Positions 16,179-64,000 of a stretch of DNA of 64,000 bases are shown in pieces. Under the pieces are notes generated by a model. That model made no database searches. It was not told the origin of the DNA and saw nothing but the letters and a program-made list of their open reading frames with translations. Numbering within the stretch: position 1 is the first letter of the stretch; the number at the start of each line of letters is the position of its first letter. The position numbers and the translations under genes were made by a program. Source of the stretch: Tubiluchus corallicola (Eukaryota > Priapulida > Priapulimorpha > Priapulimorphida > Tubiluchidae); assembly GCA_030141605.1 (NCBI GenBank), contig JAQGDQ010000070.1, positions 662,045-726,044 of the forward strand, given 5' to 3'.

Positions 16179-19100
16179 GTAAGTCCTGTTATAAATTTGA
16201 AAAGCTTTCACATAATTATAGTTTCTTCGGGTAATCTGTCATATCGTTTTATCGGCATCTAGTCGCCTGGTCAATCTTTTTGGCAAACTAGGCGACCTTT
16301 TCTAGTAACCCAGTCCGAAGGAAATTAAATAGATAAAATAATTTCAATTGTAATTTTTACAATTGTACTGTATGTTTCACAATCTATTGTATCGCATACT
16401 CCTGTATGTTGAATTTACTCGAGTTTCTAGACTTTTTTATTCCTCATATCTGGGTTATGTTGTTTCTAATTTTTGTCTGCACTTCTCTTTCCATGAGTTT
16501 CATGTATAAAAGTCTAAAATTTGGCACAGTAATAATTAAACAGTCCCCATTTCTGCAAAAATTTGGTCTGTTGACTCATTGGTGTATAAATTTAATGAAA
16601 ACAACAGTGTAAAGTTCAGCAGAATTAACAAAATATTGAAATGCAGAATTAACAGATGTAGTCTAGTGTTTATCTTTCATGTGTTTTTGCATAATTAACA
16701 TGTTTGTGAATATTTTTTAGCCATGCATGTACATGTACTTTATGTTTACAACTTGAGTAAAGTAGCATAAGTGTAACTTAGTCTAGCAAACCAATGCAAT
16801 GTGGAGTAGCATGATGTCGCATTAGGTGACATAGCACAACACAATACAACAGTGACTACGAGAGAACATTTATGTAACTTGTTACGTGACTCAAGTAATC
16901 AGCTGTCTCATTGTGGCAGTTACATTACATTACATTACATTACAAGTTGGCAGTGGTTAAAATGATATTAATTACTGTATAGGGCCTAAATTATTTCCTG
17001 GCAACATGTTTTAATGAATATTTCATTTAAGCTGCATATAATGTACTTAATGATTTTAGATTACACCATGCTAGTTATTACATACAAACTACACATTATT
17101 AGTTTCAAATTACGGTACCTTGTACTTTACTGAACAGTGCATTATTACATAAGTTGTGCTATATAACACTCGTTTATCATTATTTTATAACTGTTGTTTG
17201 CAATTATTCTTTTTTCAGGAGAATCATGTTTTGGTACTAATCTTTGCTTTTTCCATGTGTGAACATGTGCTTTGTTCATTCGTTTACTCATATTGCACAT
17301 TTTGTTGTCACACACTTGCTCGTTTTGCGTTATTTACAATTACAAACATATTCATAGTGCATCATGAATTCTGTTGCATGCGTGTCAATTTTTGCATTGT
17401 TTTCTGTTAGACACACACTCGCCTCGCCTTTCCTTGTTCACTGCTAAGAATACTAATTTTGCATTGTTTTCTATTAGTCACGATGGCCCACTCATATATA
17501 TATATATAATAATCTTTATTTGCCATTAAAAACATTGATAATCACTGATAAAAACTTTATAGAGATAATCAATCAGTGTTAGTTAATAAAAACTTACACT
17601 GCTGAAGGCAAATGCGTCAGTGCAATCTAAACTACTGTGCAGTAATGACGAATAAAATCAAACATATTTACAACTATACACAAAAAAAATATAAAAAAAA
17701 ACTATGATTTAATTAATATGGCCGTGGGTATATGAATTCGGAATTAGTGTGTATGTTGTCGTACTGGTGTGATGGTATTTCATATCTGGTTAATATTAGT
17801 GATTTTAATTTTGTTTTAAATGCTGATAGGGACTTGATTTGTTTAGCCTGTAATGGTAGAGAATTCCAAAGTAAAATTGCTTGTTTGATTACAGAGTTCG
17901 TTCCATAGTGGGTATTTGTCCTAATTTGTTTTAGATTGAATGTTCTGGAATTAACGATAGGATTTGGAAAAAAGGTAAATCTGTTATTCTGGAATGGTTT
18001 GCTGATGTTGTTAATGTATTTAAATATAAAAAGCAGAGTAAAATATTTTTTGTGTGCTTCAATGATTGGGAATTTTAAAGTTTTTCTCAGGTTAGTTGTT
18101 GAAGCTTTGAATTTTTGTCTACCTGCCTTGTGTTTGTATGAGTACCCAGCTATCAATCTCAACGCATAGTTTTGAAGGAGATTTAATTTTAAGTAATTTT
18201 CTCTTTTGGTTTTTTGAAGTAGCGTACATCCATATAAGAAGTGTGGTAGAACTAAAGTTTTATATATTAGTGTTTTAGTTTCCTTTGTTAGTTGCCCTTT
18301 AACTTGTCGGAGATATGATGTGCTAGATGCCATTTTTGTGTATATGTTATTAAAGTGATCATCCCATGAAAGATTATTGTCTACTTGTATGCCCAGGAAT
18401 TTAACATTGTTAGTTTGTTTGATTACAGCATTATCTATTGTCAAAGTGGTTGATGATGCATCATTAGTATTTAATGAGGGTGACAGTATCATGAATTCTG
18501 TTTTGTCATTATTCATTTTTAGCTTGTAATGACTAAATGCCATATTTATATTTTTTATATCTTCTTCTAAATAATTTTTTGCAGTTTGGACATTTTCATG
18601 GGCTATGTAGATTGTAGTGTCATCAGCGTATTGCGTTATTTGTGAGTGTTTTAATACACTGGATATGTTGTTTATATATAGGCAAAATAATAACGGACCT
18701 AGTAGTGTTCCTTGCGGTATACCTCTGTTTAACGTGGCCCAGTCAGAAAAGTTGGTTGTATCTAACTTTACTCGTTGTTGTCTATCTTTGAGATAATTTT
18801 GTATCAGTTTTAACGATATCGAATCTAATCCGATTTGTTTTAAATTATCGTAAAGTAGTTCGTGATTAATGCTATCGAAAGCTTTACTTAAATCCAAAAA
18901 TGCTGCTAAAATGTATTGCTTGTTGTCTAAACTATGTCTCCAATTTTCTGTTGTGTGTATTAGGGCGTCAATGGTTGAATGGTGTTTACGGAAGCCAAAC
19001 TGATGTTTTGATAAAAGTTCATGTTTATTTACATATGAATTTATCTGATCATAAATTACCCTTTCCCAAACTTTGCCGAAACAATGGATTACGGAAATTG

Positions 19101-22100
19101 GGCGATAATTCATGGGATCACATTTTGGATCTTTTTTATGGATCCCAACTCACATTGTTTATTGTTAGTACATACTGTTCTGGCATTATTTTACTGAATA
19201 TTTGTTCAAAAATGCTAATGGCATTTATTTTGCTCTTACCTGTGCTCACCTTGCATTGTAAACCTGCTGTGCATGGTTTGTTATTTACCTGTTAATATAA
19301 CTTAAATAAGCAAATATTATGTACTCAACTTTCCTCTCACATAATGCTCTTGCTTTTTTTGTATTCATGAGTTTGCCATTTACCTTATTTATAAGTAAAA
19401 AGTTATTAAAAAAGTATCAATAATGATGGTTTTGTAAGTCAATAGTTCAATATTTGAAATCAGCTTGTATTATGAAATCCTAAACATTTACATAATGCTT
19501 AGTAGCATAAGATTTCATTGATAATTTCTCCTAGTTTTGCTGTGGTTACGGAATGAAAAGTACATAATTTCTATTCTACACAAGTGTAATTTTTATTGCA
19601 AATTAAGAGATTTTAGCTATGTTTTGGTTATTTTTCTAATTGTAGCTCTTCTGAATTAATTCTGTTTTCACAATTAATTCTAGATTTATTCATAGATGGC
19701 AGCATGAGTTAGTTGCGGGAATGTGGGCCTGTCCGTTACTGATATTGATTTGCATAATGTACTGTGAAATGTTTTCTGTATGCTTTCAGCAAGGCCTGTG
19801 AGAACTGAATATAAGTAACACTGTGATTACGCTGCACCACCATGCTCATTAGGTTTAATGGTAACAGCTGACGGTAATGATAACTGATGATCCCTTTATG
19901 CGGAGCATTTTTATTCTTAATTAAAATTTAATTACTCCAGTTTAAGGGAACTTCAAAAATGAAGAAACACTTTTTCTGCTGATCATTTCTAATTATTCAG
20001 TGACGAGATTTTAACAAATGCCGTGTTAGCAAGAGCTTTTTTTCAAGTTTATCCTCGATACCCATACGATTGTATTTTACTAATCACGATTTCTTTTTCT
20101 TCAAAGAGCTTTGTAGCTGCTGTGACTTCTATTACCTTTTTAATCTGTCGCTTTTGAATTTTTTCAGTGTTAGTTGCATTTAATACTTGTAATATTCTGG
20201 CGCAAAGATGTTGTGCAGAAATTAAACCATGTTTTGTACTTTATCTTCTTGTCTCCTTTTGTAGTGCAGGTCTCACTAAATTAATAATATTGAAGAACAT
20301 ATTACGTATTTATCAAATAGTTTAGGACATATATGCTGAAAGAATCATTTTGAAAAATAGCCACACTTTTTTATTATAAATTGTGAAAAACTGTAGAGTA
20401 AAACCTACATATGCATATGTGTGTATGTGTGTGCATGCGTGTGTGTAAGAGAGGAACAAAAAGAGAGAGAGAGAAAGGGAAAGGAAGAGAGAGGCAGGAA
20501 AAGAGGGAGGGAGAGAGAAGGGGAAAGGATACTGAGGGAAAGAAACAAGTGGGAACATGAGAAAACGATATAATTATTGTATGCCGTGAGTATATTTCCC
20601 ATAATGCCCATAATATGGCCCATAATCCATGTTCATTCACCAAAAATTACACCAGCAAATCGTGGAAAGGGTGCTAACCTCACTGCTTATATATATATAT
20701 ATATATAAAACCATATACTATAAAAAACATATACTACGTTAATAAGAATACCATTATACAAGTCAAATTCAATAATTTAAACTAAAGACAGAACATAAAC
20801 TTTGATGTATGAACCCAATGGTAAAAACATAAATATACATAAACACATATTTAAGGTAGTTACATACACACATAATATTTAATTTACATAAGTGATGTTA
20901 GTTATATATGTATATAATTTGTTTTTTAATTTATAATAATTACATCCTGGAACTGAAACATTTTACAATAAAATTACAAGCAACTTGGAGAATTTCGGAA
21001 TCGTTTGAGCCTAATAATAATTTTAGTTTCACATCTATTGCATACAGAGAGCTAATTTCTGTATAAAGGGTGTTTCTTTGCTGTTCATATCAACCGTTCA
21101 AATGTTATGTTACAGGTCGATCATACAACTACGATCAGGATCAGGACTCGTCAAGTGATAGTGATGATGAGATCTTGCGGCGATTACAAGAGTCCATGAG
21201 TGCTCATAGTATTCTCCGGGCATCAATCAGATCAACTACAGCGACAGTACTGCCACATCAGAATTCTGTATCAAAAGATCATGGAACGTGCGACGAACAG
21301 CGAGGCCTGATAAAGCAGGGTCAGCTGGATGGCCAAGGAATTGACGTGCAGGCAGGTACGGATGGCAGTCATTATCTGTGAAATATTTAAAGGCACACGG
21401 GTTTTAGTATTTCGTCTGTCTTGTTAATAGATGCCACCACGCTACGCATAATATATTATTACTGGTGCTGCTAACAGTTGATGTCGCCATCTGCTAAAAT
21501 TAGAATTAAACTAATGGAAGCTAGGGAAACTGAGTGATCAGATGGTTCTGTTGGAACGTTTAACCACAAACCCAGTTGTAAAATTAAAGTGTCCTAAAGT
21601 TTCACTTTTGGAATATTTCTGTAAAGATTAATTAACATATGCAGTGCTTGCTTGTTTCTACTTTTAAATGTTTTAGTAATAAGTCTTTTCACAGTTCCAG
21701 CAATTGATGATGATCGTGAAAAGGTCAAAGGTTAAGTGTACCAGACAATGCATTTGTGTACACTTGGCAATGCCTCGCAACCCATGCTGTTGTAATAGTA
21801 ACAGTTTTTGTAAGTGTCTGTCAAACGTCATTTCCGTGATGGATTTCTGTGGATATTTTTAACATTTCTGAACACCAATGCTCAGTGAATGTCTGAGGTA
21901 ATAGATTTGCAGAACTACATCAGAGTCTTGCTGTAGAGGCCAAGTGTTTCTTTATACATAAATAAGCTTAAAACCAGACAAAATACAAAAACCATAAAAA
22001 TTTAGGAAACACTTTTTATTTCAAATAAATTTTTATGATTTTTATATTCTTGTTTTAAAGTTTATTTTGAGTTTAAAATTTCTAAAAAAAATTTTTGCTT

Positions 22101-57963: not shown

Positions 57964-58150
57964 ATTGAAGACTATTTTCGTTTTGCTAATAAAGGCGAAT
58001 TCATAATAATTAGGGTTCAGTTACCAGAACATCGATCACAAATTCATGTGCTTCGCTAAAATGTTAAAAATATTGACTGCTCCCACCGGAAATAATTAAT
58101 CACAAGCGGAAGTTTATGTGGCTCCTTCTATGGGATTTTCAGAAAATGTG
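57964..58150 (-). promoter_or_regulatory. Putative arhgap1 5' region with ETS-like motifs
   Basis: Two GGAA core sites with ETS-like context, ACCGGAAAT at about 58,084 and GCGGAAGT at about 58,106, lie 120-145 bp upstream of the ATG. No TATA box is placed convincingly. ETS sites near TATA-less starts are common in animal housekeeping genes, so this is inference. Confidence 0.3.
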
Positions 58151-58399
58151 ATGGTCGCTGTTTTTAGCCACTGTTTTTCTCGGGCGCTTCTCCGTTTCTC
58201 AAAATTGAAGTATTTCGGTGGTGATAGTGAGCACACCTGATGAACGTGAGGCAGCGATTGAGAAAAGACTGCCAGTCATTGCCACCGGAGAAAGAAATGT
58301 GTCATATACTGTACCATTTCGATGTCAAGTATAGTTAGTATAATTGTTGTGTTGGTCGACTTAGTACTAATACTATAATAGTAGACTAAATTTAATTCA

Positions 58400-58592
58400 T
58401 GTCGATTTTATTTTATTTTTACAGTTCTGCAGCAAATCGTAATTTGAATGCAGTATAACTTAAAAGTAAAATTGACATAATTATGGCAATCAGGCACTGA
58501 CCTTTAGTTTTTATCGCAGTATGTGTTGTTTTTATTATTATTGCCAATGTACCTGAAAGTAGTTTTAGTGCAATAAACTGAATTGAATTGAC
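58400..58592 (+). mobile_element. Probable LINE 3' end with GAATT tail
   Basis: GTGCAATAAACTGAATTGAATTGA has AATAAA (58,572-58,577) directly followed by tandem GAATT units, a typical 3' tail of CR1/L2-like LINEs. No ORF2 sequence is recognisable upstream. Confidence 0.45.
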
Positions 58593-58727
58593 ATAGATTA
58601 GATATTTTATGTTTCTTCCATGTAACAACATATTACATAATTAAATCTTTAGTTTTGTTAATTTATACAAGTATGACTAAGTAAGGAAAGATCATAGGAT
58701 AGACAATCTGCAAATAAAGATAGTACA

Positions 58728-58764
<37 letters not shown>

Positions 58765-59377
58765 ACATCTAGTCTTTTAGCCTTTATTACATTATTATTA
58801 TACAAATTATGATCGATACTGCACAAAATGTAAAGCATTAGACCTAGACAGAAAAAAATCAGACATATTAATAAAACAACCAGCTATTAGTGCGTAATTT
58901 ACATTATATTACGAAAATATTCAACCAGAATATACTGAACTCCAAAACTTTGTAACTGCGAAAATGTGCAAAATTATGTAACTGATGATAGAATTTTAAT
59001 GATGTCATAATATTCACATTGAACTTGAACTACTGTTTGATCGTTGGATATGAAAATGTGCTCTTAAGTTGCTATGTGGATGCCATGGACATTTCATTAA
59101 GTTCATTTTTTGCACATTTAATGATTGCGTTCTGCATCAAAATTTAAACATTTTGGCTTTGAAATTACAGTAGGCCGTTTTGTCTATAATGACCGTACTC
59201 TACTTGACAGCTACACCTTTGCAGTAAGACATGACTGCCTTTTCTGAAGATTATCACATGAACAAATTTTGTATCTAAGAATTTAGCTATACCATTTGTA
59301 CACATAATTACTGAGACCTATTTAGTTTTCCAGTAAAACTATAATAAGATAGCAAGAGAAATATGATAATCTATACG
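58593..59377. other. No gene seen, contains (TA)n at 58,732-58,762
   Basis: AT-rich sequence with one pure TA run of about 15 units. Confidence 0.6.
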
Positions 59378-61053
59378 CTTATATTAATATTCTTGGTATA
59401 TATATTTATTTATTTATATATATATAAGATTCGAGGCTACAGCCCGGACGAGGGCACCATTTGCGGCGATCTATATATCAAACGTGTCTTCTCATTGATG
59501 GTTTATTTTTCGAATCGGGCCCACCGGGAGGAACGGGGGGCGAAAACCCCCCAAAAATGGCCCTTTTTCGGCCGTTTTTTGCAAAAGTTATACGGCTGAG
59601 ATGTAGAGAACGGGAACGGGCCGAGGGGGGTGCTGGGTATGGATAGATAGCCCGTTCAGCGGTGGGTGTAGTAGGCATATTTAGAATTCCCGAGAGGGCC
59701 AGGGCGCCCCGCAACGGGCGTTTTCCCGGACCCAACTCGCGATTTTTTCGAAATTTTGACCAAACAGCATGCGGGAAAAACGTTCTAGCGGCGCCTGGTG
59801 GGACTCTCGGAAGGAAATATATAGCTCTTTACAAAGAGGAAGGACAGGGCTACACGATGATGTGGGATATATTTTAGGGCAGGTCCACCGAGAGGAGTAT
59901 CAACGAGTTAGTTAGGAGTTCTATTTTCGGCAATTTTCACTTAGAAAACAGCTGACGCAAAGGCATTGTTGTGACGTCATCCATTGTACTCTGTCTATAA
60001 TCTTATAACTTTAATTCAGCAAAAAGCTACAGGCTTTGCGTTAGTTAAACAAACAGTAGGCACGATGTTACGGGCTTTGTGTTATAAATGTGGACTAGGT
60101 AGGATGTTCGCGTATTATTGATTACACGTGTATTTATACGCAAAATCTTTTGCGGGGCCTTTGCTATTTATTATATTATAGCACATAGTTTCAACTTTGT
60201 GAAAAATGTTTGGAATGGTTTTGTTGTAATGCTGTGCTGTTGGTGCTTGTGCTATAGGTGTTGTCATCGTTGCCACCATCATCATCATCATCAACATCAT
60301 GATCACCACGTGAGGTGGTGGATTTGATGTGGTGTGGTGGTGGTGTGCTTTGTGTGTTGTGCTATGGATGGTGTGGTGGGGTGATAGGGTGTGTGGGGTG
60401 TGGTGTGGGTAGTGTGGTATGGAGTGGGTGGCGTGGTGTGTGGGTGGGTGGGTGTTGTGGTGCAGTGTGGTGTTATGGTGTGGTGCTGTGCGGTGTGATG
60501 TGGTGGAGTATTATGGTGTGGGTGGTGTGGTGTGGTGTGTGGGTGGTGTGGTGCAGTGGTATGGTGTGGTGATGTGGTTGGTGTGGTGTGGTGTGGTATG
60601 TGGGTCGTGCGGTGTGCTGCAGTGGTATGTTGTGGTGCGGTGTGGTGTGATGTGGTGGAGTGGTATGGTGTGGTGCGGTGTGGTGTGTAGGTGGGTGGGT
60701 GGTGTGGTGCTGTGCGGTGTGGTGCTGTGCGGTGTGATGTGGTGGAGTATTATAGTGTGGGTGGTGTGGTGTGTGGGTGGTGCAGTGGTATGGTGTGGTG
60801 CAGTGTGGTGGAGTGGTATGGTGTGGGTGGTGTGGTGTGTAGGTGGTATGGTGTGGTGCGGTGTGGTGTGATGTGGTGGAGTGGTATGGTGTGGGTGGTG
60901 TGGTGCAGTGTGGTGTTATGGTGTGGTGCTGTGCGGTGTGATGTGGTGGAGTGGTATGGTGTGGTGCAGTGTGGTGTGATGAGGTGGAGTGGTGTGGTGT
61001 GGGTTTTGTGTTGATTTGTGCACAAAATTCTTTTTGTGGGGTTTGGCTAGTCT
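59378..61053 (+). repeat. Large tandem unit, copy 1 (unknown element)
   Basis: A 1,676-bp unit. In order: AT-rich head (TTATATTAATATTCTTGG and TA/TTTA runs), a GC-rich CpG-containing block (about 59,430-59,900), a CRE palindrome TGACGTCA at 59,972-59,979, two related motifs TACAGGCTTTGCGTTA and TACGGGCTTTGTGTTA about 37 bp apart (60,030-60,083), a CAT triplet run with CACCAC/GTGGTG hairpin near 60,300, a G/T-rich minisatellite, and TTGTGCACAA near the end. No recognised protein; short open frames in the GC block are shared by both copies but have no known domain. Confidence 0.93.
60310..61015 (+). repeat. G/T-skewed minisatellite of copy 1
   Basis: About 700 bp composed almost wholly of G and T on the plus strand, built from GTGGTGTGG, GTGTGGGTGG and GTGTGATGTGGTGGAGTGGT modules. 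GGGTGGGTGGGTG runs (near 60,443) could form G-quadruplexes. Open frames here (Val/Trp/Cys/Gly) are artefacts. Confidence 0.97.
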
Positions 61054-62713
61054 CTTATATTAATATTCTTGGTATATATATTTATTTATATATATATATA
61101 TAAGATTCGAGGCTACAGCCCGGACGAGGGAACCATTTGCGGCGATCTATATATCAAACGAAAGGTCTCGATCTAGTGTCGTCTCATTGATGGTTTATTT
61201 TTCGAATCGGGCCCACCGGGAGGAACGGGGGGCGAAAAACCTCCAAAAATGGCCCTTTTTCGGCCGTTTTTTGCAAAAGTTATACGGCTGAGATGTAGAG
61301 AACGGGAACGGGCCGAGGGGGGTGCTGGGTATGGATAGATAGCCCGTTCAGCGGTGGGTGTAGTAGGCATATTTAGAATTCCCGAGAGGGCCACGGCGTC
61401 CCGCAACGGGCGTTTTCCCGGACCCAACTCGCGATTTTTTCGAAATTTTGACCAAACAGCATGCGGGAAAAACGTTCTAGCGGCGCCCGGTGGGACTCTT
61501 GGAAGGAGATATATAGCTCTTTACAAAGAGGAAGGACAGGGCTACACGATGATGTGGGATATATTTTAGGGCAGGTCCACCGAGAGGAGTATCAACGAGT
61601 TAGTTAGGAGTTCTATTTTCGGCAATTTTCACTTAGAAAACTGCTGACGCAAAGGCATTGTTGTGACGTCATCCATTGTACTCTGTCTATAATCTTATAA
61701 CTTTAATTCAGCAAAAAGCTACAGGCTTTGCGTTAGTTAAACAAACAGTAGACACGATGTTACGGGCTTTGTGTTATAAATGTGGACTAGGTAGGATGTT
61801 CGCGTATTATTGATTACACGTGTATTTATACGCAAAATCTTTTGCGGGGCCTTTGCTATTTATTATATTATAGCACATAGTTTCAACTTTGTGAAAAATG
61901 TTTGGAATGGTTTTGTTGTAATGCTGTGCTGTTGGTGCTTGTGCTATAGGTGTTGTCATCGTTGCCACCATCATCATCATCATCATCAACATCATGATCA
62001 CCACGTGAGGTGGTGGATTTGATGTGGTGTGGTGGTGGTGTGCTTTGTGTGTTGTGCTATGGATGGTGTGGTGGGGTGATAGGGTGTGTGGGGTGTGGTG
62101 TGGGTAGTGTGGTATGGAGTGGGTGGCGTGGTGTGTGGGTGGGTGGGTGTTGTGGTGCGGTGTGGTGTTATGGTGTGGTGCAGTGCGGTGTGATGTGGTG
62201 GAGTATTATGGTGTGGGTGGTGTGGTGTGGTGCAGTGGTATGGTGTGGTGCAGTGTGGTGTGATGTGGTGGAGTCGTATGGTGTGGTTGGTGTGGTGTGG
62301 TATGTGGGTCGTGCGGTGTGCTGCAGTGGTATGTTGTGGTGCGGTGTGGTGTGATGTGATGTGGTGGAGTGGTATGGTGTGGGTGGTGTGGTGTGTAGGT
62401 GGTATGGTGTGGTGCGGTGTGGTGGAGTGGTATGGTGTGGGTGGTGTGGTGTGTAGGTGGGTGGGTGGTGTGGTGCAGTGTGGTGTTATGGTGTGGTGCT
62501 GTGCGGTGTGATGTGGTGGAGTATTATGGTGTGGGTGGTGTGGTGTGGTGTGTGGGTGGTGCGGTGCAGTGGTATGGTGTGGTGCAGTGTGGTGTGATGT
62601 GGTGGAGTGGTATGGTGTGGGTGGTGTGGTGTGTAGGTGGTATGGTGTGGTGCGGTGTGGTGTGATGTGGTGGAGTGGTATGGTGTGGGTGGTGTGGTGT
62701 GTAGGTGGGTGGC
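61054..62713 (+). repeat. Large tandem unit, copy 2
   Basis: A direct repeat of copy 1 with few substitutions in the non-repetitive part. It has 16 bases (AAAGGTCTCGATCTAG, about 61,161-61,176) that copy 1 lacks, and its own CRE at 61,664-61,671. Its minisatellite (62,005-62,713) has a different module order. It stops within the minisatellite and lacks the TTGTGCACAA end of copy 1. Confidence 0.93.
62005..62713 (+). repeat. G/T-skewed minisatellite of copy 2
   Basis: Same module types as in copy 1 with rearranged order. It breaks off abruptly at GTAGGTGGGTGG before the unique spacer. Confidence 0.96.
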
Positions 62714-62903
62714 TGCATAGTACGAGCTATTAAATCTGGTCGCGGATTATCCAGAGTCACCAAAAATTTGAAAATGGTACCGCTGGTTCTTCGACCAAGC
62801 AACGGTTTATAGTAACATGCGGCAATAATAATCAGACCACCTCGAAAACAAGAGTTGCTTAAGATGTTATCCCTGGACTACGTTCTAAACGAAATAATTA
62901 TAT
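62714..62903. other. Unique spacer between direct and inverted copies
   Basis: About 190 bp of ordinary composition (CTGCATAGTACGAGCTATTA onward) with no match to the units and no recognised feature. It separates the plus-oriented copies from the inverted arm. Confidence 0.8.
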
Positions 62904-64000
62904 ACTAGCCAAACCCCACAAAAAGAATTTTGTGCACAAATCAACACAAAACCCACACCACACCACTCCACCTTATCACACCACACTGCACCACACCATA
63001 CCACTCCACCACATCACACCGCACAGCACCACACCATAACACCACACTGCACCACACCACCCACCCACCTACACACCACACCACCCACACCATACCACTC
63101 CACCACATCACACCACACCGCACCACACCATACCACCTACACACCACACCACCCACACCATACCACTCCACCACATCACACCACACTGCACCACACCATA
63201 CCACTGCACCACCCACACACCACACCACACCACCCACACCATAATACTCCACCACATCACACCGCACAGCACCACACCATAACACCACACTGCACCACAC
63301 CACACAGCACCACACCATAACACCACACTGCACCACACCACCCACCCACCTACACACCACACTGCACCACACCATACCGCTGCAGCACACCGCACCACCC
63401 ACACCATACGACTCCACCACATCACACCACACTGCACCACACCATACCACTGCACCACCCACACACCACACCACACCACCCACACCATAATACTCCACCA
63501 CATCACACCGCACAGCACCACACCATAACTGCACCACAACACCCACCCACACACCACGCCACCCACTCCATACCACACTACCCACACCACACCCCACACA
63601 CCCTATCACCCCACCACACCATCCATAGCACAACACACAAAGCACACCACCACCACACCACATCAAATCCACCACCTCACGTGGTGATCATGATGTTGAT
63701 GATGATGATGATGATGGTGGCAACGATGACGACACCTATAGCACAAGCACCAACAGCACAGCATTACAACAAAACCATTCCAAACATTTTTCACAAAGTT
63801 GAAACTATGTGCTATAATATAATAAATAGCAAAGGCCCCGCAAAAGATTTTGCGTATAAATACACGTGTAATCAATAATACGCGAACATCCTACCTAGTT
63901 CACATTTGTAACACAAAGCCTGTAACATCATGCCTACTGTTTGTTTTTGTTTAACTAACGCAAAGCCTGTAGCTTTTTGCTGAATTAAAGTTATAAGATT
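62904..64000 (-). repeat. Inverted copy of the large unit (continues past the window)
   Basis: From ACTAGCCAAACCCCACAAAA onward this is the reverse complement of copy 1 from about 61,050 back to 59,999: minisatellite (as C/A), CAT/ATG run, then the AT-rich part. Near 63,895-63,960 it differs from copy 1 by four substitutions and a 6-bp insertion, so it is diverged. The GC-rich block would lie beyond the window edge. Confidence 0.93.
62930..63665 (-). repeat. C/A-skewed minisatellite of inverted copy
   Basis: The same minisatellite in reverse orientation. The long minus-strand open frame through it has no biological meaning that I can support. Confidence 0.96.

Follow-up and report, generated by a model that had tools for sequence, protein, structure and literature searches.

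Tandem arrays of a non-autonomous Helitron in Tubiluchus corallicola and their probable growth by insertion at older left ends

Structure of the repeat array

We analyzed a 64,000-nucleotide (nt) stretch of DNA from the priapulid Tubiluchus corallicola (hereafter the window; assembly GCA_030141605.1, contig JAQGDQ010000070.1, positions 662045-726044), which ends in three copies of a repeat, and found this repeat to be a non-coding, non-autonomous canonical Helitron. Unit 1 (59370..61050, + strand) is a complete long-form element that is preceded by an A at 59369, starts with TC, and ends with CTAG followed by a T; the initial annotation, made from the sequence of the window, had let it begin at 59378, which we correct to 59370. 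Its left terminal sequence (LTS; 59370..59394, +), delimited with the help of aligned copies, reads TCTATACGCTTATATTAATATTCTT and has ATTAAT inside. It is followed by a CpG-rich body that is common to dispersed copies and in which no coding frame was found (59430..60137, +), an inner terminator that retains its hairpin and has CTAT replacing CTAG at its end (60138..60167, +), a G/T-rich minisatellite tract (60318..61005, +), and the outer right terminal sequence (61021..61050, +), in which a 7-bp hairpin (61021-61038) is followed by 12 nt that end in CTAG. Unit 2 (61051..62712, +, the end being approximate) directly adjoins unit 1 at a junction that reads CTAG|TCTCTTATATT, is a long form with a CTAT inner terminator, and has lost its 3' end within the G/T tract. 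Beyond a stretch without assigned strand (62713..62904) that, as read from its sequence, presumably is the host DNA that received the next copy, the inverted long-form unit 3 (62905..64000, -) has a complete 3' end (CTAG|TATATAATTATT), and its 5' part lies past the contig end. Unit 3 is incomplete because the window stops exactly where the 726044-base contig stops.

Much of the layout that the initial annotation had described was borne out. The two direct units are spaced by about 1.68 kb, with 96-99% identity in gap-free stretches and 96.7% across the 5' half, and the composition shifts sharply from AT-rich DNA (31% GC at 58001-59000) to the CpG-rich block (47% GC, CpG observed/expected of 1.16) and then to the G/T tract. 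The third copy is indeed inverted, with 407-nt arms that are 99% complementary, whereas its description as diverged does not clearly hold for a unit truncated by the contig end. The supposed tendency of the minisatellite to form G-quadruplexes is weak: a four-run G3 motif occurs in none of the three tracts, which hold 15, 17, and 16 motifs of the G2 type. Frames of at least 150 amino acids (aa) within the repeat were judged by eye to be artefacts of the G/T tract, with no coding potential otherwise, and neither an Rfam scan of the window nor a tRNA scan returned a match.

Helitron ends

Searching the assembly (343.5 Mb in 2344 contigs) for copies beyond the window, as the initial annotation had proposed, revealed a dispersed repeat at levels above chance, with 43 scored matches from 2719 first-look candidates. 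A pattern for the outer 3' end, allowing at most one mismatch, was found 238 times genome-wide, and the reversed control pattern was found 0 times. Two samples underlie the counts below. The first set comprises 20 loci, selected because they matched the window body best. The second comprises 81 ends in 80 loci, which are the first 80 usable places among 100 listed of the 238: 79 listed places absent from the first set plus one from lower down (on contig C1056), with two neighboring ends on contig C984 sharing a locus. The second set includes two pairs of near-duplicate loci (L109/L110 and L089/L097), and two of the flanks first classed as host DNA were later reclassed as lying in or near a copy.

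The aligned copies carry the ends that define canonical Helitrons, namely a TC start, a 3' hairpin, a CTRR-type end, and A|T flanks (PMC4778049, PMC4067079). An A precedes TC in 18/18 non-tandem left ends from the 20 fetched loci and the window, where A|TC opens variants (TCTACTA, TCTATACTC, TCTC) of a common TTATATTAATATTCTTGG. At the outer 3' end, CTAG is followed by T in 28/28 cases of the first set and in 77/81 of the second (3 C and 1 A in the others), 105/109 together; as CTAG formed part of the search pattern, only the flanking T is an independent count. DNA folding placed a hairpin with a 7-bp stem and a 4-nt loop 12 nt from this end, at -5.4 kcal/mol (z of -3.2), and equally stable folds arose in 2 of 200 shuffles. 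The flanks of aligned copies were checked for a target duplication, another step proposed in the initial annotation, and none was visible. The ends seen across aligned copies are those of a Helitron, for which a lack of target duplication would be expected. In one C-flank exception, L049/L095, the left flank resembles a near left-end piece, and we therefore read it as an A|C target within an old left end.

Long terminal repeat (LTR), terminal inverted repeat (TIR), and long interspersed nuclear element (LINE) identities were ruled out by the asymmetric ends and the absence of duplication in aligned copies, and Hammerhead/Penelope and satellite readings were abandoned once the ends had been recognized. 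The initial view that the repeat matches no known LTR, LINE, Helitron, or TIR element was wrong with regard to the Helitron. Its suggestion of a non-coding part of a larger mobile element came near the truth, the repeat being a non-coding, non-autonomous mobile element itself. It had also named membership of a known transposon as what would overturn its reading, and at the level of kind the repeat does belong to one, having canonical Helitron ends. The family is new and its kind already known; its value lies in the target motif, in the resemblance of this motif to the left end, and in the junctions, from which the origin of tandem Helitrons could be settled.

Among described systems, Helraiser/Helibat of bats shares the 5'-TC, the CTAG-3', a palindrome about 11 nt from the end, and insertion between A and T, as well as an AT-rich preference that is strongest on the 3'-flank side, new 3' ends produced by read-through, and, for Helraiser, AC as an occasional alternative target (PMC4778049, PMC5876387). 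A Helitron Rep model found one match in the assembly, on contig C2069 (L030:4862-5575), and comparison of this Rep domain with solved structures returned Helraiser (7lcc, E 2e-67) as the only PDB sequence found. A Helentron/HINE (Helitron2-type) identity might come to mind, as minisatellite-bearing elements of molluscs and insects are usually of this kind, in which internal tandem repeats are common (PMC4067079, PMC12628747). We consider it very improbable, given that such elements are described as inserting at TT or T-rich sites and lacking CTRR ends (PMC4067079), in contrast to the A|TC and CTAG|T found here, and that the single Rep domain is nearest to canonical Helraiser.

Within the body, the cAMP response element (CRE) palindrome TGACGTCA lies at 59972..59979 in unit 1 (no strand assigned) and again at 61664-61671 in unit 2. 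The initial annotation had pointed out a CRE palindrome; the palindrome is unbroken in 36/36 aligned units, a degree of conservation reached by only 8 of the 718 consensus 8-mers, and one of the 36 units is only about 75% identical overall. This conservation would suit a promoter- or origin-type satellite with a function of its own, as the initial annotation had envisaged. Precise transposon ends at dispersed sites, flanked by A and T, make such a satellite extremely improbable, and it is superfluous for explaining the array, although Helitron identity as such does not account for the invariance of the palindrome.

Target preference

Insertions of this family into host DNA prefer A|T sites followed by a hexamer, A|T-N4..7-ATTAWT. 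In the first set, ATTAAT occurred within offset 4-9 in 10/17 non-tandem 3' flanks, compared to 0.85% of A|T sites. The strict ATTAAT thus defined recurred in the second set in 12/29 plain host flanks at offset 5-8 (the first flank base counting as 0), vs 0.69% of 11327 A|T sites in the host part of the window, and the relaxed ATTAWT in 18/29, vs 1.6% of these sites. Since the motif was widened from ATTAAT to ATTAWT once 60 of the 80 second-set loci had been seen, the host flanks unseen at that point are of particular use: 6/9 match ATTAWT, two of these being near-identical duplicates of each other. Upon 5000 composition-preserving shuffles, we obtained means of 0.55 (ATTAAT) and 1.15 (ATTAWT) matching flanks, with maxima of 4 and 8. 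The motif is nearly absent beyond offsets 5-8. TTA-like microsatellites make up 11/81 flanks of the second set, a further AT-rich target.

The same hexamer lies within the element. At its own left end, which reads A|TCTCTTAT-ATTAAT, the motif stands at offset 8, and in the diverged relative on C2069 the terminator is followed by T-GTATA-ATTAAT. Unlike in Helraiser, the 3'-side preference is here resolved to ATTAWT at offset 5-8, matching the element's own left end. Among the openly accessible literature, we found no paper linking a Helitron with ATTAAT and none with such a target rule in its title; being confined to these papers, the result does not prove novelty.

Origin of the arrays

In the second set, the LTS of another copy adjoins 30/81 3' ends, and 11 more ends lie in or near a copy. 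Adjacent Helitrons have been reported in bats and maize, and whether tandem Helitrons arise from concatemers or from repeated insertion has been debated since those papers (PMC2267711). The many junctions of the present family can decide the matter by sequence alone. We propose that the units all belong to one non-autonomous family of canonical Helitrons, that arrays result from repeated landing at the left ends of older copies, and that the long form arose by read-through, an account that we hold to be very probably correct.

Adjacent units are not closer relatives of each other than dispersed ones. The 15 adjacent same-strand pairs have a median identity of 0.938, vs 0.956 for 599 pairs between loci (Mann-Whitney p of 0.11), in loci chosen by similarity to the window and with the diverged, non-abutting L010 included among the 15; in 14/15 pairs, each of the two units is matched at least as closely by a unit located elsewhere. 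A second line of evidence came from the junctions. Applying the logic of the empty site to left-end targets only, we examined eight arrays, where an insertion into a left end should leave the severed part of that left end on the opposite side of the new copy. The flanks rejoined into an exact left end in 4/8 arrays (L025, L092, L093, and L091 with L033). Neighbors that are no closer than dispersed copies, together with rejoining flanks, thus indicate that arrays grow by insertion into left ends, and where the missing left-end piece can be read at the far side, the upstream unit is therefore the later arrival.

These data also bear on the possibility that the arrays are rolling-circle concatemers, formed by replication past the element end and integrated as one piece. 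Many junctions are exact CTAG|TC joins, as expected of a circular intermediate, Helraiser circles contain joins of this type (PMC4778049), plant tandem arrays were attributed to such concatemers (PMC12628747), and one damaged junction is common to two units of L019. However, besides the divergence of neighbors, short and long forms are mixed within arrays (L011, L019, L025, L093), and junctions that cut a left end leave the missing piece beyond the insert, which a concatemer does not predict. We therefore regard concatemers as an unlikely source. Growth from one inserted copy, by unequal crossing-over or by segmental duplication, appears more improbable still. Two loci 14 kb apart on contig C823 (L109, L110) have nearly identical host flanks, so that cases of segmental duplication, or of duplication in the assembly, do exist here, but neighbor divergence, mixed forms, and varied junctions argue against either process as the origin of the arrays, as crossing-over would repeat one junction, a pattern seen for the two L019 units only.

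Repeated landing at left ends could operate as follows, with the nick, peel, and join steps modeled on the Helraiser literature (PMC4778049). A Helitron transposase made elsewhere would nick at the A|TC of the left end, one strand would be peeled off up to the 3' hairpin and CTAG, and the ends would be joined into an A|T site without target duplication. To nick the left end, the Rep nuclease has to bind it, and the same DNA-binding surface may read the target; the left end of an old copy, along with its look-alikes, would thereby be favored as a target, and repeated landing there would build head-to-tail arrays with the younger unit upstream. We suggest that target choice is a form of left-end mimicry, in which A|T sites with ATTAWT at +6 to +9 are picked for resembling the element's own left end, old copies are preferred, and arrays extend 5'-ward, a proposal to which we give even chances. 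In IS200/IS605 HUH transposases, the transposon's own end sequence helps to select the target. These systems are prokaryotic and without a helicase, and serve as an analogy only. If true and general, left-end mimicry would account for the tandem Helitrons of eukaryotes at large with no need for concatemers, and the family in any case yields a concrete hypothesis of target choice.

A number of observations weigh against this account. The rejoining in L091/L033 is ambiguous, a doubled 5' end being found also in the single copies L013 and L014; L095 rejoins approximately only; inspection of L094/L118 and L117 for a rejoined left end found none; and in L096, the new copy lies outside the old one, 13 bp in front of it. 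Perfect CTAG|TC junctions, the commonest kind, are equally compatible with a circle concatemer (they are compatible with insertion because every A|TC includes an A|T site, but do not prove it), and the identical damaged junction of the two L019 units suggests that they were duplicated as a unit. ATTAWT is absent from 11/29 host flanks. Around the C2069 Rep match, 20 kb of sequence showed no LTS-like string and no frames of at least 130 aa follow it, shorter frames not having been searched against a family library, and an incomplete search of the assembly found no transposase with the family's two ends. Finally, by our arithmetic, copies supply at most ~0.3% of ATTAWT-type sites, so that the hexamer alone cannot explain the self-preference: a scaled estimate gives roughly a million A|T-N4..7-ATTAWT sites and at most a few thousand left ends (from the 2719 first-look candidates), yet 37% of the 81 ends are tandem. 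Recognition of the full left end is therefore the better hypothesis.

Growth by insertion into left ends can be set beside earlier cases. Maize Helitrons share head-to-tail neighbors with CTAG|TC joins and differing sequences, which were read as consecutive insertions; the account given there leaves the insertion order open (PMC2267711), whereas here left-end stubs, where present, mark the upstream unit as the later one. In Metarhizium/Fusarium, one Helitron is located 2 bp upstream of the 5' end of another, and a tandem row of three occurs, but these are a handful of cases with non-canonical Helitron2-like ends, whose mechanism is left open in the description of them (PMC5148889). For transposable element dimers of Drosophila a review favors insertion-site preference, and for the arrays of plants it favors rolling-circle amplification (PMC12628747). 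The plant centromeric arrays (Xiong et al. 2016, via PMC12628747) are likewise tandem Helitron arrays, described there as made up of truncated copies in which many 5' ends accompany a single 3' end, and explained by rolling-circle amplification; by contrast, the junctions here retain 3' ends and the units differ.

Long and short forms

Each long unit contains, about 800 bp from its start, a further sequence that resembles a terminator and has kept its hairpin intact. Such inner terminators end in CTAT followed by a common TTATTATATTATAGCA in 30/35 cases and in CTAG|T followed by different sequence in 5/35. Four of these five terminate short units of about 0.76-0.86 kb, and the fifth (L015) belongs to a fragment in which no left end was recognized; a length of 2172 that had been classed as short belongs to a long unit without its 3' end and not to a short form. 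By its appearance, the long form resulted from read-through and thereby carries the G/T minisatellite and a new terminator. In the order of events that we envisage, the inner terminator would have lost its last G (CTAG to CTAT) with the hairpin retained, transposition would then have continued to a second, similar hairpin-CTAG end, picking up the G/T minisatellite, and this new downstream terminator would have become fixed with the minisatellite lying between the two. In Helraiser, bypass is promoted by removal of the hairpin (PMC4778049), whereas in this family read-through accompanies a changed CTAG with the hairpin kept. The pair of CTAT and CTAG forms provides a natural test of the role of the 3' tetranucleotide when the hairpin is intact.

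In L094:1-2276 and L118, the G/T tract and terminator follow unrelated sequence, and the usual body is missing. Such a unit may have lost its 5' part or may be where the captured segment came from.

Candidate partner and neighboring features

Contig C2069 was considered as the site of an autonomous partner. A related 3' end lies 5.6 kb downstream of its Rep domain on the same strand, with 77% identity over the last 84 bp, and the 3' ~360 bp are related to the family; with a hairpin not predicted and neither a left end nor a helicase frame seen, it is a doubtful candidate.

Elsewhere in the window, a 478-aa frame at 17713-19149 (-) contains a reverse transcriptase domain (RVT_1, E 7.9e-40) and looks like a remnant of the non-LTR type. 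The (AT)n run at 58731-58763, ahead of the array, is an ordinary microsatellite.

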